Below, one piece after another: positions 124-35,863 of a stretch of 36,052 nucleotides of DNA (position 1 is the first letter of the stretch; the number at the start of each line of letters is the position of its first letter). Below the pieces are notes generated by a model that was not told where the DNA came from, made no database searches, and saw only the letters and a list, made by a program, of their open reading frames with translations. Source of the DNA: an uncultured Gemmiger sp. (GTDB taxonomy: Bacteria; Bacillota; Clostridia; Oscillospirales; Ruminococcaceae). A program made the translations under genes and the position numbers. The stretch is from positions 1 through 36,052 of the forward strand of contig CALXHQ010000026.1 of the NCBI GenBank assembly GCA_944388145.1, in the 5' to 3' direction.

Positions 124-1419
124 CTATCCGGTCCGCCTTCTGCATGGCAGCTCCGCGCAGAAAGTTGCACCGCCGCCGGGGGTGTCCTGCACCCAGATTC
201 TGCCGCCATGCAGCAATACCAACTCCCGGGCGACGGCCAGTCCGAGCCCATAATGGTGATGATCCTCATAGAGAGGGCTGCTGTAAAAGCGCTCAAAAAT
301 CCGCTTCCGGTCAGCGGGGGCTACGCCGGGGCCCTGGTCAACAACCCGGAACTGAACGCGGCCGTTGATCTGTAAAATCTGCAGCCGGATTGTTGTGTGT
401 TCCGGGGCAAACCGCAGTGCGTTGTCCACCAGGATAGTCAGCAGCTGACGCAGCCGATAACTGTCGCATGGCAGAGGAGAAACCTCCCCGTTCGGCAACT
501 CCGCCTGAATGCTGTGCCCGGACTGTGTGGCCAGCGGCTCCATGCTCTCGGCAAAATCCAGCAGGAAAGTATCCGGCGCCAATGTCTCCAGCTGCAGCCT
601 GCGGCGTGCACTGGCACCTGCACTCAACAAAAGCAGTTCGTCCACCAGGGTGCCCATCCGCTTGGCCTCGGAATCGATGGTGTGCAGCGATCTGTCCGCC
701 CTGTCCGGTTGTTGGAGCGCCGCCCCCACATTGGCGCGGATTACAGCCAGCGGGGTGCGCAGCTCATGCCCGGCGACACTCAAGAATTGCTGCTGCCGGT
801 CCATCGCCTCGCCCACCGGCCGGATGGCCCGGCCTGCCACAAACCAACAGATCAGGCAAATCATCAGCCAGGCGGCAACGCCCACCAGCACAAACAACAA
901 GATCAGACGGGCCAGATATGCCTGTTCCACGGCCAAATCTTGTGCAGCCAGCAGGGCGGTCCATCGGTCTTCCTCCATATGCAAACGCATTGTACAGCGA
1001 TAATTTCGCCCGTCCGCAGCCGTCAGGGAAAAGGCCGGCGCTGATGTATTGAGTTCCCACATGGGGCAGCTGTCCAGGTCCACCGTGTAATACTGCTCTG
1101 CCTCATCGCGGACAGCCTGCAGCAAGGTTTGGTCTGCGGCACTGCGACGGCTGCTGTACAATAGCGGAACGCCGTTCTCTTCCAGGCGAACCAAAACATC
1201 GCTTCCTGTTTCCAACTGCTGTAGCCAGCCGTCCTCCAGCTGGTTGAATTGCTCCCACTGGTATTGCAGCTGGTCCACCACGCCGTCAAATGCATCCTGC
1301 CGGGCGGATGTGTACTGTTCGCCGGCAATCCGACAGTCAAACCCCAGCACAACAGCCAGCACCGCACCGGTGAGCAGTGCCGCCAGCAATGTGATACGCA
1401 GGCGCAGATTTCTCAGCAT
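124..1419 (-). CDS. sensor histidine kinase of a two-component system
   Basis: A membrane histidine kinase of 431 residues that would phosphorylate the response regulator encoded just upstream. Visible parts are TM1 (about 9-27), an extracytoplasmic sensor of about 140 residues with no recognised fold, TM2 (about 171-194), the H-box AGHELRTPLA with phospho-acceptor His218, the N-box with Asn333, the G1 motif DQGPGV (361-366) and the G2 motif GLGL (391-394). All catalytic motifs are intact. The start chosen is the ATG at 1419, with GGAGG 7-8 nt upstream; a longer reading from a TTG at 1437 lacks a ribosome-binding site. It overlaps the regulator gene by 7 bp, which implies translational coupling. 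There is no HAMP signature beyond a short linker. The signal sensed is unknown. The gene's position suggests it controls the divergent transporter-like operon. Confidence 0.93.
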   Translation of the reverse strand: MLRNLRLRITLLAALLTGAVLAVVLGFDCRIAGEQYTSARQDAFDGVVDQLQYQWEQFNQLEDGWLQQLETGSDVLVRLEENGVPLLYSSRRSAADQTLLQAVRDEAEQYYTVDLDSCPMWELNTSAPAFSLTAADGRNYRCTMRLHMEEDRWTALLAAQDLAVEQAYLARLILLFVLVGVAAWLMICLICWFVAGRAIRPVGEAMDRQQQFLSVAGHELRTPLAVIRANVGAALQQPDRADRSLHTIDSEAKRMGTLVDELLLLSAGASARRRLQLETLAPDTFLLDFAESMEPLATQSGHSIQAELPNGEVSPLPCDSYRLRQLLTILVDNALRFAPEHTTIRLQILQINGRVQFRVVDQGPGVAPADRKRIFERFYSSPLYEDHHHYGLGLAVARELVLLHGGRIWVQDTPGGGATFCAELPCRRRTG

Positions 1420-2093
1420 ACCGGTACCTCCAGGCAATAGCCGGCGCCTCGCCGCGTTTGCAGAACTGTGTGGCTGCCCACCAGTTTCAGCCGGCGTCGC
1501 ACCAGATGGATATAATTGTCGATATTACCACTCTCCACCTCACTATCGGGTCCCCACACATGCAGCAGGATCCGCTCCCGAGAAACGACACTGCCGGCAT
1601 TGCGCATCAGAAGTTCCAGCATGGCGCACTCCCGGCCGGAAAGACTGTGGGTACCTGCCGGTCCGGTCAACAGCCGCAGCTTTGGCTGTAAGGTCAGATC
1701 GCCCCGGCACAGACTTTCATTTGGCTCCAATTCGGCCGGACGGCGGCACAATGCCCGAATACGGGCCAGCAGTTCCTCTGTGGCAAAGGGTTTGGGCAGG
1801 TAATCGTCGGCGCCGGCATCCAGACCGGCAACCCGGTCACCCACTGCGTCCAATGCGGTCAGCATCAGGACCGGGGTATGCACCCCGGCATCCCGGGCCT
1901 GACGAAGCACCGACAACCCGTCCAAGCCGGGCAGCATCCGGTCAAGAAGCACCAGATCATAGCTGCCGCTGCACATCAGATCCAGCGCATCCGTGCCGGT
2001 TTCACAGCAATCCACTGTATAGCGGTTGGCATTCAAGATGTCCCGCAGCGCTTCCTGCAAAGCGGTCTCATCCTCCACAAGCAGAACCCGCAT
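1413..2093 (-). CDS. OmpR/PhoB-family response regulator
   Basis: A 226-residue transcription factor. The N-terminal receiver domain (1-115) has the acidic pair E7/D8, phospho-acceptor Asp51 in DLVLLDRMLPG, the conserved Thr79 region and Lys101 in LPKPF. The C-terminal winged-helix DNA-binding domain (about 130-226) ends with the typical RRRL...RRGAGY pattern. It is the first gene of a two-gene minus-strand operon with the kinase, and it is divergent from the operon starting at 2239. Direct repeats and a palindrome between the two are well placed as its binding site, over its own -35 and upstream of the divergent -10. This suggests autoregulation plus activation of the divergent operon, which is an inference. 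Confidence 0.95.
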   Translation of the reverse strand: MRVLLVEDETALQEALRDILNANRYTVDCCETGTDALDLMCSGSYDLVLLDRMLPGLDGLSVLRQARDAGVHTPVLMLTALDAVGDRVAGLDAGADDYLPKPFATEELLARIRALCRRPAELEPNESLCRGDLTLQPKLRLLTGPAGTHSLSGRECAMLELLMRNAGSVVSRERILLHVWGPDSEVESGNIDNYIHLVRRRLKLVGSHTVLQTRRGAGYCLEVPVC

Positions 2094-2129
2094 GGTCTCA
2101 CCGTCCTTTTCCCTATACTTTTACTCATC

Positions 2130-2159
2130 ATTATAATACCGGAACATCACTCTAAACAA
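2130..2159 (-). promoter_or_regulatory. sigma-A-type promoter for the two-component operon
   Basis: On the minus strand, TTGTTT (2159-2154) and TATAAT (2135-2130) are separated by 18 bp. The start codon of the regulator lies about 37 bp downstream. The -35 overlaps the CTCTAAA direct repeat, consistent with autoregulation. Confidence 0.55.
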
Positions 2160-2177
2160 TCTCTAAATGATTTAGAG
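2150..2177. promoter_or_regulatory. putative response-regulator binding site
   Basis: CTCTAAA occurs at 2150-2156 and again at 2161-2167, an 11-bp phase (one helix turn) typical of OmpR-family dimer sites. The second copy is also the left arm of the perfect palindrome CTCTAAATGATTTAGAG (2161-2177). It sits in the 145-bp divergent promoter region between the regulator gene and the transporter-like operon. The assignment to this regulator is inferred from position. Confidence 0.6.
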
Positions 2178-2198
2178 CCACTTTACAGGTCCGGGCGC

Positions 2199-2204
2199 TA
2201 CAAT
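2199..2204 (+). promoter_or_regulatory. probable -10 element of the transporter-like operon
   Basis: TACAAT, 35 bp before the ATG at 2239. No good -35 lies 16-18 bp upstream. The phased repeats end about 20-30 bp upstream, which fits an activator-dependent promoter. Confidence 0.4.
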
Positions 2205-2238
2205 AGGCCCAGAAAAACTACAAAGGAGGAACGGCGAC

Positions 2239-4356
2239 ATGAGACAGCTTAAGAAATGGTGTGCAGGCATTTTGGCCGGTCTGTTTGCTGTCACGCTGGC
2301 AGGCTGCGCTGCTGTGCCGGGGCAGCAGGAAACCACGGGTGACAACACGGTACAATCCTTGACCGGTGGTTATCTGGAGGAGGATATTTCTCCCGACCAC
2401 AATGACAACGTGGGACTGTATGCGGTGGGAGATGTCCTGCACGCGGTTACCATCGAAAATGCTGCTGCTCCGCTTCAGCAGCAAATTGCTCACTGGTACA
2501 CCATGGGGCCGGACGGCAGCTGGCAAGAAAATGAAGCCAATGGATTTGCCGATGCCGCCGCGCAGGTTCCGGAGGCTTCCGCGGCATTGTGCAACGCCTA
2601 TCTGGCCCAGGATGGCAGCCTGTACTGGCGCATCACTGTTATTCGCGAAGAACCGGAAAAAACCAGCCAGAGCTATCTTTTTGCGGTTCAGGACGGCAAG
2701 GCCCGGCTGCTGGACACCCCGCCCGTCGGGGAAGTCTCCCTCTGGATGGATGACACCACCACAGCGCTGGCTGTTTGCGGCGACACCATCCTCGTCACAG
2801 ACAATACCATGGAACCACACGCCTACGATAACCAGGGCAACCCGGCTCCGATGAAATTTCCGGACATACAGGGACGGCTTCTCTGCGGCAATGCGACAGG
2901 GTACTACTGGTTGGACGCCCAAAGCAACCTCCAGTATTGCCTGGTGGGTGGAACTACCGTCGAGACGGTCCTGGATGGCAGCCGCTATGCACTCACCAGT
3001 CCCGGGATGCACGTCCGATCCGCCGCTGCCATTGATGATGATACAATCTATATTCAGATGTCGGACGGCAACATATCCAGTCAAAATCAGGAGCTCTATC
3101 GTTATCGCTGGGACGAAACTCTGGAGGTTGTGCAAGGCGGGGAACTGACGGTATTCAGTCTGTATCAATCCCGTACAGTGGAGGCAGCCGTGGATGAGAT
3201 GATCAAGCAAACCGGTGCCGGCGTGACCTATACCTATGCACTGGGGGAATCCACTGAAAACGGTCAAGCAGTGGTTACCGGCAGCCGGGAGGATGCACTG
3301 ACACAGCTGAATACCCAGCTGCTGGCCGGCAGCGGTCCCGATGTGATTATCCTGGATGATATGCCGGTACAGAGTATGATCGAAAAAGGGGTGCTGGCTG
3401 ACCTGACCGGCATAATCAACACTGACGGCTTGCTGAGCAATATGGCCGGGGTTTGGCAGACAGATGCGGGGCTCTACGCCGTACCGGCTCGATGCGTACC
3501 GCTCCTGTTCGGCGGCATCGACACGGTCATGGCCGACATTCCGGATGCCGAAACGTTGGCGCAGCGGCTTGCAGCGGAACCGAACATCAACGAGGCAGAA
3601 TATAACTGGCAGACTGATCCTATCCCGCTGATGGCTTTCCGCAATACCGAGCAGCTGTTTGACACCTTCTATCCGCTGTATGCCGGGGAAATTTGGCAGA
3701 ACAATGAACTGAATGCAGCTGCCTGCCGCACGTTCCTTGAAATGCTGAACCGGATCTGCCAGGGCGGAGGGCGCAGCCTGAACATCGCAGATGCTGCAGC
3801 CTCCGTTTACAGCGGCACATCCTACTACACCCCTTCAAACGGTACAAGCGGCAGCTTTATGAACGCCGGCAGCAACGCTTTTTGCGATCTGGAATACTCC
3901 TTGAGCGGGTTGGGCAGCTACTTCCAATATTACACTGAGATCTCCGGCAACCCAACCACTGCCACAGTACGGGCCATGACCACGGCCGCAGGGCAAAGCT
4001 GCATCCAGCCATCTTGCGTAGCGGGCATCAACGCATCGTCACAAAATCCGGAAGGCGCTGCGCAGTTTTTACAGATCCTGCTGGGCCAGACTGTGCAGGA
4101 ACAGGACACGTACGACGGATATCCTACACTGGCCACTGCCGTACAGGCACAGTGGCAGGCGGGGCTGTCCAACTCTGGCGTCCAAAGCAACACTGATATG
4201 GCTGCCGTTCTCCAGGAAATGGACGTGGTACAGCCCTCCACCGTACTGCGCAGTGCCATGCTGCAGGCCATGCAATGTTACCTGGAAAGCGGCAGCGCGG
4301 AAGAAGCGATTCAGACCGCCCGGGATACCGCAGTCCTTTGGCTGGCAGAGCAATGA
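2239..4356 (+). CDS. lipoprotein with propeller-like N-terminus fused to an extracellular solute-binding domain
   Basis: A 705-residue exported lipoprotein and first gene of a five-gene overlapping operon. The signal peptide ends in the lipobox LAGC (Cys23). Residues about 45-300 contain about five short repeats of beta-strand character, such as DTILVTDN, GYYWLDAQSNLQY and DTIYIQMSDGN followed by polar turns, resembling blades of a beta-propeller. Residues about 302-705 resemble an extracellular solute-binding protein of the sugar/oligopeptide family 1 type (LTVFSLYQSRTVEAAV near 303-318; LNTQLLAGSGPDVIILDD near 357-374). Typical family-1 binding proteins are 400-450 residues, so the extra N-terminal module is unusual. 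The start is supported by AAAGGAGG 10 nt upstream. The stop overlaps the next ATG (ATGA). By context it would present a ligand to the following MalF/MalG-like permeases; the ligand is unknown. Confidence 0.8.
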   Translation: MRQLKKWCAGILAGLFAVTLAGCAAVPGQQETTGDNTVQSLTGGYLEEDISPDHNDNVGLYAVGDVLHAVTIENAAAPLQQQIAHWYTMGPDGSWQENEANGFADAAAQVPEASAALCNAYLAQDGSLYWRITVIREEPEKTSQSYLFAVQDGKARLLDTPPVGEVSLWMDDTTTALAVCGDTILVTDNTMEPHAYDNQGNPAPMKFPDIQGRLLCGNATGYYWLDAQSNLQYCLVGGTTVETVLDGSRYALTSPGMHVRSAAAIDDDTIYIQMSDGNISSQNQELYRYRWDETLEVVQGGELTVFSLYQSRTVEAAVDEMIKQTGAGVTYTYALGESTENGQAVVTGSREDALTQLNTQLLAGSGPDVIILDDMPVQSMIEKGVLADLTGIINTDGLLSNMAGVWQTDAGLYAVPARCVPLLFGGIDTVMADIPDAETLAQRLAAEPNINEAEYNWQTDPIPLMAFRNTEQLFDTFYPLYAGEIWQNNELNAAACRTFLEMLNRICQGGGRSLNIADAAASVYSGTSYYTPSNGTSGSFMNAGSNAFCDLEYSLSGLGSYFQYYTEISGNPTTATVRAMTTAAGQSCIQPSCVAGINASSQNPEGAAQFLQILLGQTVQEQDTYDGYPTLATAVQAQWQAGLSNSGVQSNTDMAAVLQEMDVVQPSTVLRSAMLQAMQCYLESGSAEEAIQTARDTAVLWLAEQ

Positions 4357-5261
4357 TCCGCCATATCCGGGAACGCCGCTGGTGCCGGCGCCCAATGCCA
4401 TTCTGCAAGCGGCAGAACCGCCGGGCCGCCGCTCTGCTGCTGGCCCCCAGCCTGGCGGGCGTGGCAGTGTTTTACCTGCTGCCATTTGCCGAGGTTTTGC
4501 GCCGCAGTTTTACCGATGCTATGGGTCGCCGATTTGTCGGTCTGACCAACTATCAAACCGTACTGAACAATGATGCCTTTCGCCTTGCCGCGGCCAATAC
4601 GGCAAAATTTGTGGGCATCTGCATCCCGTTGCTGCTGGCACTTAGCCTGATACTGGCCCTGCTGGTCCGGGCAACGGGGCCGCAGCGCGGCAAAGGTTTT
4701 CGGAGCTTGTTTTTGCTGCCGATGGTCATTCCGGTGGCAAGCATCGTTCTTTTGTGGAAGGTACTGTTTGCCGACTCTGGCCTGATGAATACAGCGCTGG
4801 GGGCGGCAGGTATCCCCCCGATAGACTTTATGGGCAGTGATGCAGCGTTCTGGATATTGATTGTCACTTATCTGTGGAAGAACAGTGGCTATGATATGAT
4901 CCTATGGATCGCAGGTCTCGACCGCATCCCGGCCGCACAGTATGAGGCAGCTGCGGTGGACGGCGCCAATGCCTGGCAGATGTTTAGAGCCATCACCTGG
5001 CCTGGATTGCGCCCGACGTTGGGGATTACCGCACTGCTCAGCCTGATCAACAGTTTCAAAGTCTTTCGGGAAGCCTACCTGGTGGCAGGTGCTTATCCCC
5101 ATCCAAGTATGTATCTTTTACAGCATCTGTTCAACAACTGGTTTTTGAATTTGGAGCTGGGCCGTATTACAGCCGCCGCAATCCTGGTTGTGCTGGCCTT
5201 GCTGGCTTGCGGGAGCATTGGGCTGGCTGTAAGGCGGTTCCAGAGAAGGAATCAACCATGA
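4353..5261 (+). CDS. ABC transporter permease, MalF/UgpA-like
   Basis: A 302-residue polytopic inner-membrane protein with about six hydrophobic segments and the cytoplasmic EAA loop EAAAVDGANAWQMFRAITWP near residues 193-212, where an ATPase would dock. The family imports sugars or other organic solutes as a heterodimer with a MalG-like partner, which is the next gene. The ATG at 4353 overlaps the stop of the lipoprotein gene by 4 bp (ATGA); a longer in-frame reading from 4275 would overlap much more and is not preferred. The N-terminus is short and very basic (RHIRERRWCRR). No ATPase gene lies in this operon, so coupling must come from elsewhere or be absent. Confidence 0.88.
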   Translation: MIRHIRERRWCRRPMPFCKRQNRRAAALLLAPSLAGVAVFYLLPFAEVLRRSFTDAMGRRFVGLTNYQTVLNNDAFRLAAANTAKFVGICIPLLLALSLILALLVRATGPQRGKGFRSLFLLPMVIPVASIVLLWKVLFADSGLMNTALGAAGIPPIDFMGSDAAFWILIVTYLWKNSGYDMILWIAGLDRIPAAQYEAAAVDGANAWQMFRAITWPGLRPTLGITALLSLINSFKVFREAYLVAGAYPHPSMYLLQHLFNNWFLNLELGRITAAAILVVLALLACGSIGLAVRRFQRRNQP

Positions 5262-6112
5262 AACGCTGCCATCTGCCCTGTATCCTGATTTTGTTTCTGC
5301 TGTCTCTGTTTACCCTGTGGGTGCTCTGGTTCATGGCTATGGGGGCACTCACGCCGGAAGATGAGCTGATTGCCACTATCGGCCCGGCTCTTCAGGGAGA
5401 GGAACACTCTGCCACCTGGTGCTTGCTGCCCAGCTGGCCCACTTTGCAGCCGATGGCAGAGCTGTTGCTGGATACCCCCATCTTTTTCACCATGTTTTGG
5501 AATGGATGCAAACTGGTGTTTCCACAGGTTCTGGGCCAGCTGGTGGTGGCAGCGCCCGCTGCCTGGGCCTTCAGCAAACTGCCATTTCCAGGGCGGAAAA
5601 TACTCTATGCCATTTATCTGCTTTTGATGGTATTGCCGTTTCAGATCACCATGGTTCCCAATTATCTGGTGCTGGACAATCTTGGCCTGATGGACACCTC
5701 GTTGGCCGTAATTCTGCCGGGAATTTTTTCGGCCTTCCCGGTATTGATTATGAAAAAAGGATTTGATGCAATCCCGGACGTCCTTTTGGATGCTGCCGCC
5801 CTGGACGGCGCCGGGCCATTGCGCAGCTTTGCTGCGATCGGCCTGCCGTTGGGCTTTCCGGGCATCCTCAGCGCTTTACTGCTGGACGGCATCGAGGCCT
5901 GGAACGCCATTGAGCAGCCGATGATGTTTTTGAGGGATCGGGCAGACTGGCCCCTGAGCCTGTACCTTTCCGATGTTACGGTGGAGGGGCTTGGACTTGC
6001 CATGGCTGCCAGCCTAATTTTGCTGGCTCCGCCACCTTTGCTGTTTGCGGCGGGGCAAAAGTATTTGGAACGGGGAATTGGGCTGTCCGTGTCTACAGGG
6101 GAGAATGTATAA
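5258..6112 (+). CDS. ABC transporter permease, MalG-like
   Basis: A 284-residue membrane protein with about six hydrophobic segments and a clear MalG-type EAA loop (DAAALDGAGPLRSFAAIGLP near residues 180-199), pairing with the preceding permease. The start at 5258 overlaps the upstream stop by 4 bp (ATGA) and is preceded by GAGAAGGA. The first extracytoplasmic loop, between TM1 and TM2 (about residues 32-80), is larger than a bare loop but within the range of the family. Known family function is solute import powered by a MsmK/MalK-like ATPase, which is not encoded here. Confidence 0.88.
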   Translation: MKRCHLPCILILFLLSLFTLWVLWFMAMGALTPEDELIATIGPALQGEEHSATWCLLPSWPTLQPMAELLLDTPIFFTMFWNGCKLVFPQVLGQLVVAAPAAWAFSKLPFPGRKILYAIYLLLMVLPFQITMVPNYLVLDNLGLMDTSLAVILPGIFSAFPVLIMKKGFDAIPDVLLDAAALDGAGPLRSFAAIGLPLGFPGILSALLLDGIEAWNAIEQPMMFLRDRADWPLSLYLSDVTVEGLGLAMAASLILLAPPPLLFAAGQKYLERGIGLSVSTGENV

Positions 6113-7674
6113 TGAATGAGATCCCACGCAAAAAGCCGCTGCGGCAAACCACAATATCTCAGCAGGCTGGCCGGTTGAGGCTCGCAACCAGCCGTCTGCG
6201 GAAATTCCTGCATCGAAAGAAACGGGCAGCGTCGGCTGCAAACAGCAAAGCCGTACGGTATACCCTCCGCTTCTTTGCGGTCATGCTGATCTTGACCTTG
6301 TTGGCGCGGGGGACATCCGGTGTCAACATGCCGCGGGTCAAACTGCAGTCACCAACCTCCGGGGTGATCCTTCAGCAGACAACCGTTCCGGCGAGCATTA
6401 CAGCTCGGCAGGGCGAGGATGTTCCTCTGCCCGCTGACGTTACAGTGGAATACCTGGCTGTCTCTAAAGGGCAAAGCCTGAAAAAGGGGGACGTCATCCT
6501 TCAGCTGGACAGTGAGGAGCTTGCGGATACTCTGGCCGCGGCAAAAGTACAGCTCAGCCAGCAGCAGGCACAATATGCAAGTCTGACGGCTTCCCATCCA
6601 GTGGATGCCAGTGGCGTGTCCGGGGCGCAGACAGCGCTGACACAAGCACAGCAGGATTACGAGCGGGCGGCGCTTCGGGCGCAGATTGCGGTGGACGACG
6701 CCTCCGTTCAGCAGCAGAAGGCACAGCGGGAGTATGATACAGCAACGCAAACGCTTGACACCCTGCAAAACCAGGCTCAGACAATGGCTACCCCGGAGCA
6801 GGCGCAGGTAGACCAGGCTCAGCAGCAAGTCGATGCCGCTGCTGCTGCCCTGGAGGCAGCCGAAAGAGCGCTGCGTGACGCAAAGCTCTCCCAGGAAGAT
6901 GCCCTGTTGTCTGCTCAGCGTACGGTAGACAATGCTGAAACCGCGCTGGCACAGGCCGGCAGTTCCTACGATCAGGCAAAACAGGATGCCGGGCTTGCAG
7001 TCCAATCCAATTCGGCGGATGCTGCCGCACTGAATCTGCAAATTCAGGATACGGAAACGCAGATTGTGCAGCTGGAGCAGCTGCTGCAAACGGACGGGAA
7101 AGTAACTGCTGCCTATGACACCCAGGTCCTTCTATGCAATCTTCAGCAGGGAGCTCCCTGCCCGGCGGGCGCGGCGCTTCAGCTGTCAGCCCCGGACACC
7201 AGTCTTGCCGCACAGTTTACGCTGCCCGAGGAAGAAGCGGGTCGTTTGACGGCAGGCCACCCGGTGACCATCCGTCAGGGCCAATCCAATGTGCAGACAA
7301 CGGTCCAGATGGTTTCCCCAGCGGACGGAGACGGCAATTGCCAGGTTACGGACGAATTGCCGCAGAATATCGCCGGCAGCATTGTGCCGGATTCCGCCGC
7401 TCAGGCGGAAATTACATTTTCCCGCAATGAATACCGTGTCTGCCTGCCTACATCTGCCATTCGGCAGGACAGCAGCGGCAATTTTGTGTTGACGGTGCAA
7501 CAGCGACAGTCGACCTTCGGGATTACAAATCTCGCGATGCGGATACCGGTGACGGTGGTGGAAACGGACAGCACCGGCCAGTACACTGCAATCGAGGAGG
7601 TGGTGGAGGGGCCGGTGATTGTCTCCGCTGACCGTGCAGTCCGCGAAGGCGCAGCGGTGAGGATTGAATCATGA
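6112..7674 (+). CDS. HlyD/MacA-like membrane-fusion (adaptor) protein
   Basis: A 520-residue single-span membrane protein. Residues 1-47 are a long, very basic cytoplasmic tail. TM is about 49-66. A first biotinyl-lipoyl-like half follows (about 107-135, with VSKGQSLKKGDVILQLDSEEL), then a long Ala/Gln-rich coiled-coil hairpin (about 136-328), a second lipoyl half (about 329-360), and beta-barrel and membrane-proximal regions (about 365-520). In Gram-positives such adaptors (e.g. the YknX type) work with a MacB-like permease and an ATPase in export or in defence against toxins. Here it follows MalF/MalG-like permeases and precedes a MacB-ectodomain-like protein. TAATG overlaps the previous gene by 1 bp; GGGGAG is a good ribosome-binding site. 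Confidence 0.85.
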   Translation: MNEIPRKKPLRQTTISQQAGRLRLATSRLRKFLHRKKRAASAANSKAVRYTLRFFAVMLILTLLARGTSGVNMPRVKLQSPTSGVILQQTTVPASITARQGEDVPLPADVTVEYLAVSKGQSLKKGDVILQLDSEELADTLAAAKVQLSQQQAQYASLTASHPVDASGVSGAQTALTQAQQDYERAALRAQIAVDDASVQQQKAQREYDTATQTLDTLQNQAQTMATPEQAQVDQAQQQVDAAAAALEAAERALRDAKLSQEDALLSAQRTVDNAETALAQAGSSYDQAKQDAGLAVQSNSADAAALNLQIQDTETQIVQLEQLLQTDGKVTAAYDTQVLLCNLQQGAPCPAGAALQLSAPDTSLAAQFTLPEEEAGRLTAGHPVTIRQGQSNVQTTVQMVSPADGDGNCQVTDELPQNIAGSIVPDSAAQAEITFSRNEYRVCLPTSAIRQDSSGNFVLTVQQRQSTFGITNLAMRIPVTVVETDSTGQYTAIEEVVEGPVIVSADRAVREGAAVRIES

Positions 7675-8699
7675 AAAGATGGAGCATCGTTTTGATGGCG
7701 GCCGCTCTGTTGTTGTTTGCCCGGGCAGGATGGCAAAATCAGAAAGAGATTGGCTGGTACTGCCAGGGGATCAGCCTGCGTTATGCAGAACCGTTGGCAC
7801 CCGGTGCGGCTGCGGCCGCACAGCAAAAGAACCCGGGGCTGACTTTCTGGTGCCAACAGAAAACCGTGCTCTCCGCCGGGAACACTACCGTAGAAGTTGC
7901 GGGCCTGTTCTATCTGGGGGATGCCGTACTGGTTTGGGGGCAGCCCTGCATCAAAGGAGCAATGCCCGGGCCGCTGGAATGCCGTGGCTGCGCTTTGTCC
8001 ACCGCTGCGGCAGACAGCCTGTTTGGCAGCGAAAATGTTGTCGGGTTGGAACTGGTTTGCGAAGACACGTCCTATGTGGTGTGCGGTGTTTTTGAAAGCA
8101 GTGTGCCGATGGCCTTGCTGCCAAATGCTGGCGCCTCTTTTACAGCCGTGGAGCTGCCCGCCACAGAACAGGCACGGCAGAACCCGGATACATGGGCTGC
8201 CGCTGTCTTACGGGCAACGGGACTTCCCGAGCCGGATTGGCGGCTCTGTCCTTTTGAATGGCAAGGGCTCGCGCAGTTTGTCATCTGGCTGCCATTTTGC
8301 TTTGCGGCTCTTCTGCTGGTAAGGGCAACGTTTCAGGCGGCCGTGCGGCGATCCGCGGTCTGCCGGGATATTCTTCTATTCTTTGTACTGCTCACCCTGG
8401 TGATTGCCCTGCCGGTTCTTCTGCAAAGTTTGCCGCAGTGGCTGATCCCCACCCGTTGGAGCGACTTTGCCTGGTGGAAGCAAACTTTCACTCAGCTGAC
8501 GATACATCTCCTTGCCTGGCTACGTGTGCCGCCGGTCAACCGGGATGTGTGCGTCAAGACCTGCCTCCTGCTGCAATTGGGGATGGCAGCAATACAGGGT
8601 GCTTTGTGTGAGATGCTGCGTTGTTCTCTGACTCAACCGCCTGCAAATGGTGCAAATTTAGAACTTTTGGACAATGCAGCACAGGAGCAGCCCGATTGA
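7671..8699 (+). CDS. small membrane protein with MacB/FtsX-like extracytoplasmic domain
   Basis: 342 residues with one N-terminal hydrophobic segment (about 5-19), an extracytoplasmic domain (about 20-198), and three C-terminal hydrophobic segments (about 200-220, 233-254, 295-315). This 1+3 layout is that of MacB/FtsX-type permeases. Residues 108-142 (ALSTAAADSLFGSENVVG, then YVVCGVFES) match the usual MacB periplasmic-core pattern 'x-S-x-x-A-x-x-L-F-G-x-x-x-x-V-G...y-V-V-G-V'. The similarity is by eye and the rest is divergent. It is Cys-rich and has no ATPase domain. ATGA overlaps the adaptor gene, so the pair is translationally coupled and may form a MacAB-like complex. It is the last gene of the operon. 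Confidence 0.65.
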   Translation: MKRWSIVLMAAALLLFARAGWQNQKEIGWYCQGISLRYAEPLAPGAAAAAQQKNPGLTFWCQQKTVLSAGNTTVEVAGLFYLGDAVLVWGQPCIKGAMPGPLECRGCALSTAAADSLFGSENVVGLELVCEDTSYVVCGVFESSVPMALLPNAGASFTAVELPATEQARQNPDTWAAAVLRATGLPEPDWRLCPFEWQGLAQFVIWLPFCFAALLLVRATFQAAVRRSAVCRDILLFFVLLTLVIALPVLLQSLPQWLIPTRWSDFAWWKQTFTQLTIHLLAWLRVPPVNRDVCVKTCLLLQLGMAAIQGALCEMLRCSLTQPPANGANLELLDNAAQEQPD

Positions 8700-8743
8700 A
8701 ACCTGTATTCGTGTGGTCGAACATACAAGTTTCGACTTTTCTT
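8698..8743 (+). terminator. probable terminator of the transporter-like operon
   Basis: Stem GAAAC-TGTAT (8698-8708) pairs with ATACA-GTTTC (8723-8733) with one mismatch. A short inner TCG/CGA pairing and a following CTTTTCTT (8736-8743) complete it. It begins inside the stop codon of the last operon gene. Confidence 0.55.
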
Positions 8744-10776: not shown

Positions 10777-10906
10777 CCTGAATACGCCGGTTATTGCGGA
10801 AATTTACATTTCTGTTTGTACTGGTGCGGCTGACCCTGGCCAATGTACCGGACAATAAGTGGGGCTCAGTTCGGCTTTCCCTGTGGATTTTTTTCGGCAA
10901 TCCCTG

Positions 10907-10912
10907 TATAAT
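10907..10912 (+). promoter_or_regulatory. probable -10 of the ispDF promoter
   Basis: TATAAT, 88 bp before the ispDF start. The upstream -35 region is weak. The 10777-10906 stretch holds no recognisable gene; an open frame reading through it into ispDF has no ribosome-binding site. Confidence 0.45.
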
Positions 10913-11000
10913 GAAAAACATGGAAGTGTTTGCCTGCGCACTGTTGATGGTGTGCGGATCGTTGCCTGTGATCGGTTTTGGAGTAAGGAGGTTGCAATTC

Positions 11001-12137
11001 ATGCAGACGGGAACCTGTGCCACTGTGACCGCCATACTGGTGGCAGCGGGGGCATCTCGCAGAATGGGGTTTGACAAGCTCAGCGTGCACCTGCCGGGGG
11101 GGCGTACTGTGCTGGAAACAAGCCTGGCGGCTTTTGACTCTCACCCGCAAATCACCCAGATTGTGCTGGTGGCCGGCCAAAACCTGGAAACCTGTCAGGC
11201 ACTGGCAGCCCGGTGCAGCACTCCGGCAGTGGTGGTTCTGGGTGGAGCCACCCGGGCGGACAGTGTAAAAGCCGGGTTGACTGTTGCCGACGGGGCACTG
11301 GTGGCGATCCATGACGCGGCCCGGCCCTTTGTAAGCGCCGAGCTTATCACTAAGACGCTGGAGGCGGCCCGCCGGTCCGGTGCAGCCGCCCCGGCTGTTG
11401 CGGTAAAAGATACGATCAAGGTGGCAGCACCTGATGGCACGGTCCAGACCACACCGGACCGCAACACGCTGTTTGCAGTGCAGACACCCCAGTGCTTTTC
11501 CCGCAGCAGGTATCTGGAGGCATTGCGCCTGGTACAGGGAAAACAGGCTTCCGCCGTGACGGACGACTGCAGCCTGTTTGAACTTGCCGGTTTCCCGGTT
11601 CGGCTGGTGGAAGGCGACTATGCCAATATCAAGATTACAACCAGGGAGGACTTGAAAGGAGAGGATCAAATGCGGATTGGCCACGGCTACGATGTGCACC
11701 GCCTGGTGGAAGGACGAAAACTGATCCTTGGTGGCGTAGAGATCCCGTATGAAAAAGGCCTGCTGGGACATTCCGATGCAGACGTACTGCTGCATGCCGT
11801 CTCGGATGCGCTGCTGGGGGCCGCAGCCCTGGGGGATATTGGCCAGCATTTTCCCGACAGCGATCCCCGCTATGAGGGGGCAGATTCGCTGGAGCTGTTG
11901 CGGCAGGTGGGGGAACTGCTGCGGCAGGCCGGCTATACTGTGGGCAATCTTGATGCCACCATCCTCTGCCAGGCCCCAAAACTAGCCTCCCATATTCCGG
12001 CAATGCGAGCCAATATTGCCCGGGCGCTGGGCGTGGATTCGAATGCGGTGAGTGTCAAGGCCACCACCGAGGAAAAATTGGGATTCACTGGTAGCGGTCA
12101 GGGCATTGCCGCACATGCGGTTGCACTGATTCTGTAA
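11001..12137 (+). CDS. ispDF: bifunctional IspD-IspF (MEP pathway)
   Basis: A 378-residue fusion of two non-consecutive MEP-pathway enzymes of isoprenoid synthesis. IspD (1-223) is the CTP:2-C-methyl-erythritol 4-phosphate cytidylyltransferase, with the nucleotide-binding start [15 protein letters not shown] and the AIHDAARPF motif. IspF (224-378) is the 2,4-cyclodiphosphate synthase, with metal ligands in GYDVH and [12 protein letters not shown] and the [10 protein letters not shown] end motif. The start at 11001 has TAAGGAGG 9 nt upstream; reading further upstream lacks any signal. No stop separates the domains, yet IspF has its own ribosome-binding site (see 11654). It is followed by cdaA, which has its own promoter. 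Confidence 0.95.
11654..11672 (+). promoter_or_regulatory. internal ribosome-binding site and ATG for stand-alone IspF
   Basis: GAAAGGAGAGG (11654-11664) stands 8 nt before an in-frame ATG (11670) that is exactly the first Met of the IspF domain ([10 protein letters not shown]). A product from this site would be 155 residues, the normal length of free IspF. Confidence 0.5.
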
Positions 12138-12262: not shown

Positions 12263-13156
12263 ATGAACAACGAGTTGACCAACATCATCAGCAATTTCCG
12301 TTCCTTTGATTGGACGCGTGACCTGATCGATGTGGTGATCATCGCGATCGCGTTTTATGAGTTGATTTTGTTCGCTCGGAAATCCCGTGCGGGCCAGCTG
12401 GTCAAAGGGCTGTTGCTGCTGATGGCTTTTTACGCCCTGGCCTATTATTTCCGCCTGCGTACGGTGCGCTGGCTGCTCAGCAACGTTATGCAGATCGGCT
12501 TTATTGCGGCGATCGTGCTGTTTCAGCCTGAGATTCGCCGCACATTGGAACGCCTTGGTCAAAGCACCAGCTGGGCAAGCAAGATTTTTTTCACCCGCAA
12601 AATGGAGCCGACCCTTCGCAGCCAATGGCAGAGCGCCATCGTGGCGATCTGTGATGCGGCAGAGCAGCTGTCTGATACGCATACCGGCGCCCTGATGGTT
12701 CTGGAGCGCAAAAACAATCTGGAAGAGATCATGCACACCGGCACCCAGTTCCATGCCAACGTGATTCCGGAGGTGCTTGGGACAATCTTTTATGAGGGTA
12801 CCCCCCTGCATGACGGCGCGGTGGTTATCCGTGACGGGCAGATTGTGGCTGCGGGCTGTGTTCTGCCGCTGTCCAACAATCTGGAAATGGGCAAGGACAT
12901 GGGCACCCGACATCGTGCCGGTCTGGGTATGAGCGAAAACTCAGACGCCATTGTGGTGGTGGTCAGCGAGGAGACTGGGATCATTTCGCTTGCTAAAAAT
13001 GGTGTGCTGATCCGTCGTCTGGACCGCCAAAACCTGTTCAGTCTCCTTCAGGAAGAGATTATTCCTCCTGAGGTGCGCACCGACAAGGACCCAGGCATCC
13101 TCAAACAGCTGTTTGGCAAAGGAGGAAAGGCTGCCCATGATTCGCAAAAAAAGTAA
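12263..13156 (+). CDS. cdaA: diadenylate cyclase CdaA
   Basis: Makes cyclic di-AMP from two ATP at the membrane; c-di-AMP controls potassium and osmolyte balance. The 297-residue protein has three N-terminal TM segments (about 21-38, 47-65, 73-88), a short coiled linker and the DAC domain with DGA (184-186) and RHR (216-218), both intact. The start at the ATG 12263 gives the usual CdaA N-terminus and has GAGGAGG 11 nt upstream; an in-frame GTG at 12206 is less likely. Its 3' end overlaps cdaR by 20 bp, as in the conserved cdaA-cdaR pair. Confidence 0.95.
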   Translation: MNNELTNIISNFRSFDWTRDLIDVVIIAIAFYELILFARKSRAGQLVKGLLLLMAFYALAYYFRLRTVRWLLSNVMQIGFIAAIVLFQPEIRRTLERLGQSTSWASKIFFTRKMEPTLRSQWQSAIVAICDAAEQLSDTHTGALMVLERKNNLEEIMHTGTQFHANVIPEVLGTIFYEGTPLHDGAVVIRDGQIVAAGCVLPLSNNLEMGKDMGTRHRAGLGMSENSDAIVVVVSEETGIISLAKNGVLIRRLDRQNLFSLLQEEIIPPEVRTDKDPGILKQLFGKGGKAAHDSQKK

Positions 13157-14447
13157 TCCGCCAGAACCGGACCAGGCGATTAAAAAGCGCTCCCTGATGG
13201 ACAACAAGCTGTTTCTACTTGTCATTTCGCTGCTGTGTGCCATCATTTCCTGGAGCATTGTCACGCTAACCTTTGATCCGGAAGGGGACCGTGAGTTTAC
13301 TGTCTCCGAAATCAATTACAGTTACAATTCCAATCTCTACACCGCCATGGGCCTGGATATTGTGGATGCGCCGCAAAATACCAGTGTGCGTGTGAAGGTG
13401 GAGGGCAGCGGCACCGTCATTGGGCAGCTGAGTGCCAGTGATCTGATGGTCTATCCCAATTATTCCACCGTCACTGGTTCAGGGGAGCAAACCCTTACCC
13501 TGCAGGCGCGTATTGCAAACAGTCAGTTTGCCAATAACGCAAGTAATATTGTCTTGACCGTTCTCACGCCCACTCAGGTTACTGTTGTTTTTGACCGTGT
13601 CAGCGAAAAGACACTGCCTGTCACCATCGAAACCTCCGGCCTGCGTATCGCGGAGGACTATATGCTCTATCGGTCCAGTGCTGTCCCAGCCGAGGTTACC
13701 ATCACCGGGCCCCAGTCTGAGCTGGATAGTATCGCCTCTGTGGTGGCGCCCGTTGCTATGGATGGAGAACTTTCTGACAGTACCAGCCAGACTGCCGCGC
13801 TGGAACTGCGGGATGAGGGCGGTAACGTTATCACGCCCGAGTACACCAGTATGGACAGCGAGAGCGCCAATGTCACTTTGACGGTGTATCAGGTCCGGGA
13901 GCTGCCGCTGGCCATCGACTTTATCAACACCCCCACCAATTTTGACACGTCAAGTTTGGATTATACCCTCAGCCAGGAAACCATGCTGGTGGCAGGGCCC
14001 ACACGCACGGTGAGTGCACTGTCGGAACTCAGCGTTATCAGCTTTGATTTGGGCCAGCAGTTTGCCTTTGACCGGGATTATCAGCTGCCGGTGGAGCTTC
14101 CCGGCGGTCTTGTCGCTCTGGATGATACTACCAGCGTCACATTGAGTTTTGATACATCGGGTATGTCCGCTGTTACGCTCAATGTTCCAAATATTCAGAC
14201 CATCAATATGCCCAGCAATTATGACATTGAAGTGATGACCGAGCGCGTTCCCCACGTGACGCTTTACGGCCCGCAGGATGAGATTGCACAGCTGTCGCCG
14301 GAAAGTGTCGTTGCCCAACTGGACTGCCAGAACTTGCAGATTGCTGCCGGGCAGCAGACACTGCCGGTTACGATCCAAATTCCATCCTCCAGCCGCGTTT
14401 TTGCGGTGGGCAGCTACTCGGTGCTGTGTCAGATCACAGCCCGGTGA
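13137..14447 (+). CDS. cdaR: CdaA regulator, YbbR-domain protein
   Basis: A membrane-anchored extracytoplasmic regulator of CdaA. The 436-residue protein has a basic cytoplasmic N-terminus, one TM (about 24-42) and about four YbbR repeats of beta-rich sequence (for example PVTIETSGL...YRSSAVPAEVTITGPQSELDSI). The ATG at 13137 has AAAGGAGG 11 nt upstream and overlaps cdaA. In many Firmicutes glmM follows; here a FAD-dependent protein follows instead, an order also seen in clostridia. Confidence 0.92.
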   Translation: MIRKKSNPPEPDQAIKKRSLMDNKLFLLVISLLCAIISWSIVTLTFDPEGDREFTVSEINYSYNSNLYTAMGLDIVDAPQNTSVRVKVEGSGTVIGQLSASDLMVYPNYSTVTGSGEQTLTLQARIANSQFANNASNIVLTVLTPTQVTVVFDRVSEKTLPVTIETSGLRIAEDYMLYRSSAVPAEVTITGPQSELDSIASVVAPVAMDGELSDSTSQTAALELRDEGGNVITPEYTSMDSESANVTLTVYQVRELPLAIDFINTPTNFDTSSLDYTLSQETMLVAGPTRTVSALSELSVISFDLGQQFAFDRDYQLPVELPGGLVALDDTTSVTLSFDTSGMSAVTLNVPNIQTINMPSNYDIEVMTERVPHVTLYGPQDEIAQLSPESVVAQLDCQNLQIAAGQQTLPVTIQIPSSSRVFAVGSYSVLCQITAR

Positions 14448-33434: not shown

Positions 33435-34286
33435 ATGAAACGTATCATCAGTATGGCTCTAACCGCGGCCCTGGCGCTGAGCCTGGCTGCCTGCGGCGGT
33501 ACGACAAGCGCGGCACCATCGGGCAGCACTTCATCCACATCCGCGACCTCCGAGGCCGCGAGTGCAGATCCTGCCGAGGAGGACAGCGACCTGGCCAAAA
33601 TTCAGTCTAGCGGCGTGATGCACATCGGAATCACTCTCTATGAGCCAATGAATTACTATGACGAGAACGGTGAGCTCACCGGCTTTGATACCGAATTGGC
33701 CAAGGCGGTTTGCGAGAAGCTGGGCGTGGAACCGGATTTTCAGGAGATCAACTGGGATACCAAGATTGTTGAGCTGGATGCCGGCAGCATTGACTGCATT
33801 TGGAACGGCATGACACTGACCGATGATATCCTGGCTACCACGTCTTGCACGGAACCCTACGCCAAAAATGCACAGGTCATCGTGATGAAGAAAGATGCTG
33901 CATACAGCAGTACCGCCGATTTGGCCGGTGCGGTCATCACTGCCGAGGCAGGTTCTGCCGGTGAAGCGGCAATCCAGGGCGATGATTCTCTTTCTCAGGC
34001 CGAGTACGTTTCCAAGACGGTGCAGACCGAATGCCTGATGGAGGTGGAGGCCGGCACCGCAGATGCCGCTGTTTTGGACCTGACCCTGGCCAGCGCCATG
34101 ATCGGTGAGGGAACCGATTATGATGATCTGGAGATCAAGGATGAACTGAATGTGGAAGAATACGGCGTCGCGTTCCGTCAGGGCAGCGATGCTGCGGCTG
34201 CCGTCAATGCGGCTTTTGACGCGCTGCGTCAGGACGGCACCATGCAGGAGTTGGCTGACAAGTATAATCTGGAACTGGCAGACTGA
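33435..34286 (+). CDS. polar amino-acid ABC transporter substrate-binding lipoprotein
   Basis: 283 residues. The signal peptide ends at lipobox LAAC (Cys20), followed by a Ser/Thr/Ala linker (21-52) and a type-3 solute-binding fold (LAKIQSSGVMHIGITLYEPMNYYDENGELTGFDTELAKAV pattern, then VELDAGSIDCIWNGMTLTDD). It binds an amino acid such as cystine, glutamine or arginine outside the membrane; the exact ligand cannot be read. AGAGGAGGAG precedes the ATG. It is first of three genes with its permease and ATPase. Confidence 0.92.
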   Translation: MKRIISMALTAALALSLAACGGTTSAAPSGSTSSTSATSEAASADPAEEDSDLAKIQSSGVMHIGITLYEPMNYYDENGELTGFDTELAKAVCEKLGVEPDFQEINWDTKIVELDAGSIDCIWNGMTLTDDILATTSCTEPYAKNAQVIVMKKDAAYSSTADLAGAVITAEAGSAGEAAIQGDDSLSQAEYVSKTVQTECLMEVEAGTADAAVLDLTLASAMIGEGTDYDDLEIKDELNVEEYGVAFRQGSDAAAAVNAAFDALRQDGTMQELADKYNLELAD

Positions 34287-34299
34287 TCCCAAAAGATGC

Positions 34300-34343
34300 A
34301 GCAGCACCCGCACATTGCACTTATCCGGCAGTGTGCGGGCTGC
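34300..34343 (+). terminator. attenuator-like hairpin between binding protein and permease genes
   Basis: CCCGCACA (34307-34314) pairs with TGTGCGGG (34332-34339), extended by GCAG/CTGC outside and TGC/GCA inside, followed by CTTGTT. Such hairpins typically lower permease and ATPase message relative to the binding protein. Confidence 0.6.
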
Positions 34344-34406
34344 CTTGTTACAGGCATACAATTGGGCACGATGTGCCGGGACTACCGGCAGGAAAGTGGG
34401 AATAAC

Positions 34407-35066
34407 ATGAGTGAAGCCATGGTGATTTGGAGCCGCCTGACAGAAAGCTTTTGTCTGAATGTCGAACTGTTTGCTCTGACGTTGGTCTTTGCGTTGCCAC
34501 TGGGATTGCTGGTGGCATTTGGCTCCATGAGCCGGTTCGCACCGCTGCGCGCTGTGGTACGAACATTTGTCTGGGTTATCCGCGGAACGCCATTAATGCT
34601 GCAGATCATCGTCATTTATCTTGGACCCGGCTTGTTGGGGTGGGGAACCCCGTGGCCGGCCGGAAGCCTTGGCCGCCTGACTGCTGCGGTTGTGGCGTTC
34701 GTCATCAACTACGCCTGTTACTTTTCCGAGATCTACCGCGGTGGTATTGAAAGTGTGCCCCGCGGCCAAACCGAGGCTGGGCAGGTGCTGGGTATGACCC
34801 GCCCGCAGATTTTTTTCCGGGTGACGCTGCTTCAGGTAATTAAGCGCATTTTGCCTCCCATGGGCAATGAGGTTATCACTCTTGTCAAGGATACTTCTCT
34901 GGCCAACATCATCTCCTGCAAGGAGGTCATTATGATGGCCAAAGAATACAGTGCCAAGGGATTGATTTGGCCGTTGTTTTCCACCGCCATCTTTTTCCTG
35001 GTTTTTGTTGGTGTTCTGACCATTGTCTTCGGCGCGCTGGAAAAGAAGCTGGATTATTTCAAATAA
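34407..35066 (+). CDS. polar amino-acid ABC transporter permease (HisM/GlnP type)
   Basis: 219 residues with about five TM segments, the start 'SFCLNVELFALTLVFALPLGLL', the FVWVIRGTPLMLQ family motif and the EAA loop PRGQTEAGQVLGMTRPQIFFR. The ATG at 34407 is chosen (AGGAAAGTGGG upstream); an open frame from 34296 runs through the intergenic hairpin. It probably acts as a homodimer because only one permease is present. Confidence 0.92.
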   Translation: MSEAMVIWSRLTESFCLNVELFALTLVFALPLGLLVAFGSMSRFAPLRAVVRTFVWVIRGTPLMLQIIVIYLGPGLLGWGTPWPAGSLGRLTAAVVAFVINYACYFSEIYRGGIESVPRGQTEAGQVLGMTRPQIFFRVTLLQVIKRILPPMGNEVITLVKDTSLANIISCKEVIMMAKEYSAKGLIWPLFSTAIFFLVFVGVLTIVFGALEKKLDYFK

Positions 35067-35080
35067 CAGGAGGGGCTACC

Positions 35081-35863
35081 ATGGCATTGTTGGAAGCAAC
35101 TGGGATCGGCAAGCGGTTTGGCAGCACCCGTGTGCTGGAAGATATTTCTCTCTCACTGGAAAAGGGGGAGGTGCTTGCCATTATCGGGTCCTCCGGCTCG
35201 GGCAAAACGACGCTGCTGCGCTGCCTGAACTTTCTGGAAACCCCCGACACCGGCCGCATTGTGGTGGATGGGGAGACGCTCTGGGATGCCGCAGATCCTG
35301 CCACCCACAGGGAAAGCGAAAAGCGAAAAAAGCGGCTGCATTTTGGGCTGGTATTCCAAAATTTCAACCTGTTTCCCCAGTATACCGCACTGCGAAACAT
35401 TACACTGGCAGGGGAGCTGCTGGCCAGGGAACGGCCTGATTACAAGGCGAACCGCAAACAGATCCACGCCCAGCTGGAAGAACAGGCACATCGCCTTTTG
35501 GCTCAAATGGGGCTGAGCGATCGTGCCAGTCATTATCCGCATCAGCTTTCCGGCGGGCAGCAGCAGCGGGTAGCTATTGCCCGTGCTCTGGCCTTGGAGC
35601 CGGACATCCTTTGCTTCGACGAACCCACTTCTGCCCTTGACCCGGAACTGACCGGCGAAGTCCTGCGTGTATTGAGAGATCTGGCAGCGCACAAGACCAC
35701 TATGATTATCGTCACGCACGAGATGACCTTTGCCCGCGATGTGGCTGACCGTATTCTGTTCATGGACGGCGGTGTGGTAGTGGAAGAAGGTCCGGCCCAC
35801 CAGATCATTGAGCACCCGCGTGAGGAACGCCTCTGCCGATTTCTGGCCAATTACAGTACTTAA
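35081..35863 (+). CDS. polar amino-acid ABC transporter ATP-binding protein (GlnQ/HisP type)
   Basis: 260 residues: Walker A GSSGSGKTT (about 37-45), Q-loop VFQNFNLFPQYT, ABC signature LSGGQQQR, Walker B ILCFDEPTSALD and H-loop VTHEM. All catalytic motifs are intact. An insert near residues 68-90 (GMPQ-like region with KRKKRLHFG) is typical of the family. AGGAGGGG lies 6 nt before the ATG. It completes a binding protein-permease-ATPase operon. Confidence 0.95.
   Translation: MALLEATGIGKRFGSTRVLEDISLSLEKGEVLAIIGSSGSGKTTLLRCLNFLETPDTGRIVVDGETLWDAADPATHRESEKRKKRLHFGLVFQNFNLFPQYTALRNITLAGELLARERPDYKANRKQIHAQLEEQAHRLLAQMGLSDRASHYPHQLSGGQQQRVAIARALALEPDILCFDEPTSALDPELTGEVLRVLRDLAAHKTTMIIVTHEMTFARDVADRILFMDGGVVVEEGPAHQIIEHPREERLCRFLANYST

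Follow-up and report, generated by a model that had tools for sequence, protein, structure and literature searches.

A conserved gene module that joins a MalFG-type ABC importer to MacA- and MacB-like proteins in an uncultured Gemmiger species

The stretch of DNA analysed here (the window, 36,052 bases) is contig C26 of the 2.73 Mb genome assembly of an uncultured Gemmiger sp., and it carries an operon of five genes on the forward strand (2239–8699) that combines parts of an ATP-binding cassette (ABC) importer of the MalFG type with proteins resembling MacA and MacB. The first gene (2239–4356) encodes a lipoprotein that is a solute-binding protein (SBP), the second and third (4353–5261 and 5258–6112) encode a MalF-type and a MalG-type permease, called permF and permG below, the fourth (6112–7674) encodes a MacA/HlyD-like adaptor or membrane fusion protein (MFP), and the fifth (7671–8699) a membrane protein with an ectodomain of the MacB_PCD type. 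Successive genes overlap by 4, 4, 1 and 4 bp. The original prediction, made from the sequence without database searches, had described five overlapping genes with these types of parts, and the gene positions and overlaps found here agree with it. Divergent from the operon, on the reverse strand, are the genes of a two-component system: an OmpR/PhoB-type response regulator (1413–2093; Pfam Response_reg 2.3e-28, Trans_reg_C 4e-18) and a sensor histidine kinase (124–1437; HisKA 5.6e-14, HATPase_c 8.9e-26) whose ectodomain is flanked by two hydrophobic segments. The kinase reading frame opens at TTG 1437, and the ATG at 1419 is the likelier start. None of the seven proteins contains a Walker A pattern, as had been predicted for the five operon proteins, and there is no ABC_tran match in the operon region. 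The sole ABC_tran match in the window (35135–35632) lies outside the operon and is the ATPase of a separate ABC set at 33435–35863, which has its own permease (34491–35051).

The C-terminal half of the lipoprotein is that of an extracytoplasmic solute-binding protein, with matches above the Pfam cut-offs to SBP_bac_8 (5.1e-7) and SBP_bac_1 (1.1e-6); SBP_bac_1 was matched by all 25 aligned SBPs. The fold of the N-terminal domain of approximately 300 amino acids (aa) is uncertain, and it is possibly a beta-propeller, which is a guess: propeller families were matched by few of the 25 SBPs (BNR_2 by two and BNR by one), and a single Asp-box-like motif was present in 17 of them, compared to a mean of 0.02 in shuffled sequences, and was absent from the window SBP. 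Both permeases have the BPD_transp_1 domain and an EAA loop; the EAA..DGA motif is present in permF and permG and, for either protein, in all 18 of the 18 homologues aligned, and thus the permeases appear to be built for contact with an ATPase. Their nearest families are GlcT, UgpA, UgpE and MalG. A solute-binding protein and two such permeases are the constituents of a type I (CUT1/MalFG) importer. However, the permeases of the module form a clade of their own: when 91 permF proteins were placed in a tree, 11 ordinary ones were set apart by a branch with 100/100 support, although a warning of long branches applies to this tree. An extra lipoprotein-like gene is located between permF and permG at two other loci, the second copy of the module in this genome (L032, 9018–9614) and a relative of the same genus (L040, 11751–12269); the encoded proteins of 172–198 aa are 44% identical to each other.

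The adaptor has an N-terminal transmembrane (TM) anchor, a long alpha-hairpin, a barrel-sandwich region of the HlyD/MacA type and a membrane-proximal C-terminal domain, i.e. the architecture of the MFP or periplasmic adaptor family. HlyD_3 was matched above its cut-off (3.1e-5) and also by 15 of 18 homologues, while the match to RND_mfp (9e-17) was under the family cut-off. A structure model of the window MFP had a mean pLDDT (predicted local distance difference test) of 49.9, with fair-to-high confidence only in the hairpin (approximately residues 134–326).

For the last protein, one plus three TM segments had been predicted, and this topology depends on the hydropathy threshold: at the relaxed value of 1.4 segments start at residues 4, 199, 223/242 and 293, in accordance with the prediction, whereas at 1.6 just two segments are found. 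The window protein itself had no match above any Pfam cut-off. MacB_PCD was found at E<=1 in 12 of 19 aligned homologues (best 1.1e-5), all five module members that were tested individually matched it (E 4.8e-14 to 0.0022), and in a profile comparison the ectodomain only was aligned (probability 98.3). The periplasmic core domain of the MacB family (type VII ABC systems) is thus recognisable. FtsX was not among the nine families listed for the 19 homologues, nor was it matched by any of the five members. In the part of PMC5985334 that describes it, the major coupling helix of MacB lies between TM2 and TM3; the FtsX coupling motif was present in none of 59 module MacB-like proteins, counted at loci other than L154–L171, compared to two of two controls (L110 and L111). 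These controls are classical MFP–ATPase–MacB sets of the same class, with MacB_PCD and FtsX and with a MacB/LolD-like ATPase adjoining. At the window locus there is no FtsX domain with a coupling helix, no nucleotide-binding domain of the MacB family and no neighbouring ATPase of the MacB/LolD type. Judged by sequence, the protein has a MacB-like ectodomain and appears to have lost the ATPase and the coupling region. A structure model of the window protein, predicted with one distant relative, had a mean pLDDT of 38.3, too low to be usable. A WSD motif following TM segment 3 was considered as a hallmark of these proteins and was dropped, since of 62 matched proteins just 23, the controls among them, had it. 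A scan of genome contigs with the last protein gave a single distant locus, L031, at which the MacB-like protein adjoins a beta-galactosidase-like frame (the enzyme was named by eye), and a scan of viral contigs with the MacB-like profile found no relative.

The arrangement is beyond chance, as this set of genes was found again in many genomes. When 247 genomes of the family were searched with the MFP (threshold E<=1e-10), 38 had a match. Twenty regions were analysed, two from the genome of the window and 18 from other genomes picked by score, and in 18 of the 20 permF, permG, MFP and the MacB-like protein were all encoded on one strand. The exceptions are L038, without permeases, and L044, in which the permeases are on the opposite strand and have their own short MFP and MacB-like protein there, both matched weakly. 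SBP was present in 17 and the response regulator in 16 of the 20 regions. The second copy in the own genome, L032 on contig C6, is 62% (permF), 60% (permG), 31% (MFP) and 27% (MacB-like) identical to the window copy. Beside L032, as separate genes on the other strand, are an ATPase, an 865-aa protein with 8 TM segments and a kinase/regulator pair, which together resemble a Bce-type module.

As the loci of the family were collected via the MFP, the linkage was retested from the permease side with a permF profile (A3); this search covered 391 genomes of the class and scored no more than the top few candidates in each. The 110 matches comprised 45 strong (at least 267 bits), six intermediate (191–240 bits) and 59 weak ones (below 190 bits). 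At 40 of the 45 strong permF both the MFP and the MacB-like protein were encoded no further than 6.5 kb away and in the same orientation, although the second copy at L105 adjoins a short MFP only. Of the remaining five, L120 and L149 are cut by contig ends and L114–L116 have no MacB-like protein, L114 and L115 having a short MFP and L116 a full one. With an identical MFP test (E<=1e-20, within 10 kb), 38 of 45 strong permF had an MFP nearby compared to none of the 59 weak ones. In the reverse test, 37 of 48 MFP genes (fragments merged) were near a strong permF, and two of the other 11 are the far sides of contig breaks. The intermediate group was mixed: one permF was accompanied by both proteins, one by a full MFP, two by a short MFP, and the two located on small contigs by neither protein. 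The module stays together despite changes of gene order in L097, L098 and L128, and the only permF relative found in viral contigs (L154), perhaps host DNA, has the whole module with a two-component system. Outside the class, a survey of 398 genomes of the phylum and of the families of two matches (45 and 10 genomes) gave 10 strong permF loci (L155–L160 and L168–L171); at one further locus (L161, 203 bits) there was neither an MFP nor a MacB-like protein. By these sequence surveys the five-gene set is a conserved module whose linkage is held across classes. This recurrence bears out the claim of a hybrid between a MalFG-type importer and MacAB-like parts, passed on as a single unit that includes a two-component system; the claim would have fallen if the adaptor and the last protein always occurred apart from the permeases, which the 40 of 45 strong permF contradict.

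The relatives also provide information on the ATPase. At nine of the 10 loci outside the class the operon includes an ATPase of 360–433 aa, in all nine cases above the NCBIfam cut-off for UgpC, encoded 3' of the MacB-like gene at eight loci and 3' of the SBP gene at L170; the tenth locus, L171, ends inside the MFP gene. Within the class, L119 and L122 have an ATPase above the UgpC cut-off at the same position, L115 has a UgpC-like ATPase of 322 aa (387 bits compared to the cut-off of 432) and L117 an ATPase fragment at a contig end. The genome of the window encodes one ATPase above the UgpC cut-off, an orphan MsmK away from permeases, with an AraC-type regulator and glycosyltransferase-like genes as neighbours (named by eye). 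In this genome 18 of the 33 BPD_transp_1 domains, in nine pairs, are located at least 5.5 kb from any ATPase match, and the other 15 within 2.5 kb. The residues tested as a multitask signature of MsmX, in the section of PMC7658222 concerned, are D77, R104, E110 and K154; at these positions the MsmK of this genome carries D, R, E and A, three of the four residues. Since UgpC/MsmK-family ATPases are encoded in the operons of relatives, a shared ATPase is the best of the options offered originally, and the partner suggested is of the MsmK type and not of the YknY/MacB type. The simplest reading of the sequences is that the window copy would use the shared MsmK of its genome. The absence of an ATPase was thus correctly predicted for the window locus, but the system is not motorless by nature. 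A missing operon ATPase is ordinary; it is the stable union with motorless MacA/MacB parts that is the surprise.

A MacB- or BceA-type ATPase as the partner was rejected because the FtsX domain and coupling motif are absent and the ATPases of the relatives are of the UgpC type. The same observations reduce the probability that the operon encodes two machines, a MalFG–MsmK importer and a separate MacA–MacB-like system for export or detoxification, driven by a MacB/LolD-type ATPase from elsewhere in the genome, the two being co-regulated since they respond to the same compound. There are many other ABC ATPases in the genome (80 ABC_tran matches), and the classical sets at L110 and L111 show that complete MacAB-type systems occur in the class. 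However, the MacB-like proteins of the module would offer such an ATPase neither FtsX nor the coupling motif, and the ATPase found in nine of the 10 outside-class operons is that of the importer. We consider this explanation unlikely, also in view of the reduced adaptors.

Reduced MFPs were found at L114 (142 aa, contig C5 of the window's own genome), L115 (122 aa), L148 (252 aa) and L151 (177 aa). In these the hairpin is absent, and they align to the MFP profile solely at the N-terminal anchor and the C-terminal end. In the second copy at L105 the adjoining MFP is likewise of the short form only (146 aa, 13142–13579), with a profile match at the anchor alone. Transporter contact and stimulation are assigned to the anchor and C-terminal parts of adaptors in passages of three reviews (PMC4338810, PMC4446572, PMC5985334). 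As the reduced MFPs, located beside permeases, keep only the parts to which the reviews assign transporter contact, we infer that the adaptor may dock on the permeases. With two separate machines, reduced MFPs would not be expected to stay by the permeases at L114 and L115, where the MacB-like protein is absent. Where same-strand permeases are missing, as they are at L038 and for one of the strands of L044, the MFP gene is interrupted or split; these are two loci of one genus, and the observation is consistent with a dependence of the MFP on the permeases.

Upstream of the operon, CTCTAAACAATCTCTAAA at 2150–2167 contains a direct repeat of CTCTAAA with 11-bp spacing, followed by a mirrored half-site TTTAGAG at 2171–2177. 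The 18-mer is identical in the window and in the orthologous SBP/regulator intergenic regions of L035–L037 (4/4), and any exact 7-mer repeat at 11-bp spacing was obtained in 11 of 2000 shuffles of the region. At L035–L037 the second, core-adjoining SBP/regulator pair has a different repeat (TCTTGAA in two loci, a mirrored form in L037), and no exact repeat was present in the other nine of the 16 intergenic regions examined. The segment 2150–2177 is likely a response-regulator box, to which the divergently encoded regulator may bind. A scan for sigma-70 promoters was uninformative (five found compared to 4.3 expected). The window SBP scored 740–753 bits against the SBPs of the L035–L037 pairs away from the core and 106–117 bits against the core-adjoining ones, and the corresponding values for the regulator were 344–352 and 210–228 bits. 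As both follow the pair away from the core, the SBP and the sensor seem to form a cassette that can be exchanged while the core stays constant.

This mobility, and the presence of a regulator gene in 16 of the 20 family regions, could suggest a sensor comparable to Bce-type modules: a ligand such as an antimicrobial peptide or a glycan would be recognised by the lipoprotein, the adaptor and the MacB-like ectodomain, which would pass the signal on to the histidine kinase, and transport would have a secondary role. However, L039, L044, L046 and L047 have no response regulator nearby, and the intact EAA loops of 18/18 homologues together with the UgpC ATPases of the relatives suggest working transport, which makes a sensor improbable. 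Antimicrobial peptide sensing or detoxification, which had been proposed, is not supported so far. Export was also considered, with permeases recruited for efflux and the MFP as an ordinary efflux adaptor. Parts of PMC4338810, PMC4446572 and PMC5985334 discuss MFPs for export and secretion, but a solute-binding lipoprotein is present in 17 of 20 family regions, and the EAA loops, the UgpC-type ATPases and the nearest families of the permeases all fit import. Export is therefore very unlikely.

The module resembles the CUT1/MalFGK2 importers that use a shared MsmX or MsmK in B. subtilis and streptococci, in having an SBP, two EAA-loop permeases, an operon without ATPase and an orphan ATPase of the UgpC/MsmK family. 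It differs from these in the added adaptor and MacB-like protein and in the extra N-terminal domain of the SBP. With YknWXYZ of Bacillus and with MacAB and SpMacAB (type VII, MacB family) it shares an MFP with anchor, hairpin and C-terminal domain, and a MacB_PCD-type membrane protein encoded directly 3' of it; unlike them, the window module has no adjoining YknY/MacB-type ATPase and no FtsX domain or coupling motif, and it includes importer permeases as well as an SBP. Bce-type detoxification modules consist of a two-component system, a large FtsX permease with a MacB-superfamily ectodomain, and a BceA-type ATPase. The divergent OmpR-type two-component system and the MacB-superfamily ectodomain of the window are similar to these, whereas the large FtsX permease and the BceA-type ATPase are missing. 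No such gene set was described in the titles and abstracts of the open-access literature searched (subscription papers and preprints were outside its scope), in agreement with the earlier statement that no system of this composition was known.

The best explanation, which we consider probable, is a type I (CUT1, MalFG-type) ABC importer powered by a shared MsmK and extended by a motorless extracellular assembly derived from MacA and MacB. The parts, the linkage across classes, the UgpC/MsmK ATPases of relatives, the absent coupling motif, the reduced adaptors and the upstream repeat are all read from sequence. The lipoprotein would bind a solute, perhaps a glycan, and hand it over to the permF/permG heterodimer for inward transport, and the heterodimer would be powered by the MsmK-type ATPase via its EAA loops. 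The MacA-like adaptor would dock on the permeases by its membrane anchor and membrane-proximal domain and, together with the MacB-like protein, form a collar reaching into the cell wall, which may support or activate the capture of the ligand and its transfer. The operon would be turned on by the divergent two-component system. The module is real and conserved, it is undescribed in the literature searched, and it is best filed as a new variant among the type I importers.

Several observations weigh against this explanation. The physical complex is putative, and the structure models of the MacB-like protein and the MFP are both poor overall. The distant MacB-like protein of L031, on a 5.3 kb contig, has neither MFP nor permeases, and no adjacent same-strand permeases accompany the MFP and MacB-like genes at L038 and on one strand of L044, though there the MFP is broken. 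The MacB-like protein is absent from L114, L115 and L116, and a full MFP from L114 and L115, and thus these parts are not essential in every relative. Distance-matrix (Mantel) correlations did not single out the core, as the values were high for every pair of genes, those with the SBP and the regulator too. The own MsmK is short of one multitask residue (A at 154), and unclassified ABC-type frames are located upstream within 6.5 kb at L115 (228 aa) and L135 (223 aa). The flanking genes showed no common pathway among the 105 of 153 candidate open reading frames scanned, the commonest family being ABC_tran with 3/105 members (among 25 of 121 families listed), and so they give no pointer to the substrate.

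A more far-reaching version is also conceivable, though we hold it as tentative: the module could represent a new class of ABC importers, with a MalFGK-type engine that mechanically drives the external MacA–MacB-derived collar through the adaptor, which would be seated on the permeases by its anchor and membrane-proximal domain. The import stroke would be coupled to movements of the collar, and these would pull large ligands through the cell wall or gate their passage. If this were true, an adaptor family known from export would serve uptake. Adaptor proteins are regarded as components of systems for export and secretion; a conserved importer family dependent on an adaptor would widen their known roles. 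The anchor with the membrane-proximal domain would be a minimal natural adaptor for studying transporter contact, and the module would explain operons of SBP, permeases and 'efflux adaptor' in Clostridia, which are probably annotated piecemeal. Adaptor function in Gram-positive envelopes is termed a significant knowledge gap in a passage of PMC4338810.

In one group of loci (family f31: L100, L102, L106, L127 and L130), a 301-aa frame and a protein of 724–752 aa with 9–10 TM segments are encoded directly upstream of the module, and at L102 the 301-aa frame is ATPase-like and preceded by a GntR-like gene (named by eye). In the window, a single frame at 10794–12137 resembles a fused IspD–IspF enzyme, which was likewise named by eye.

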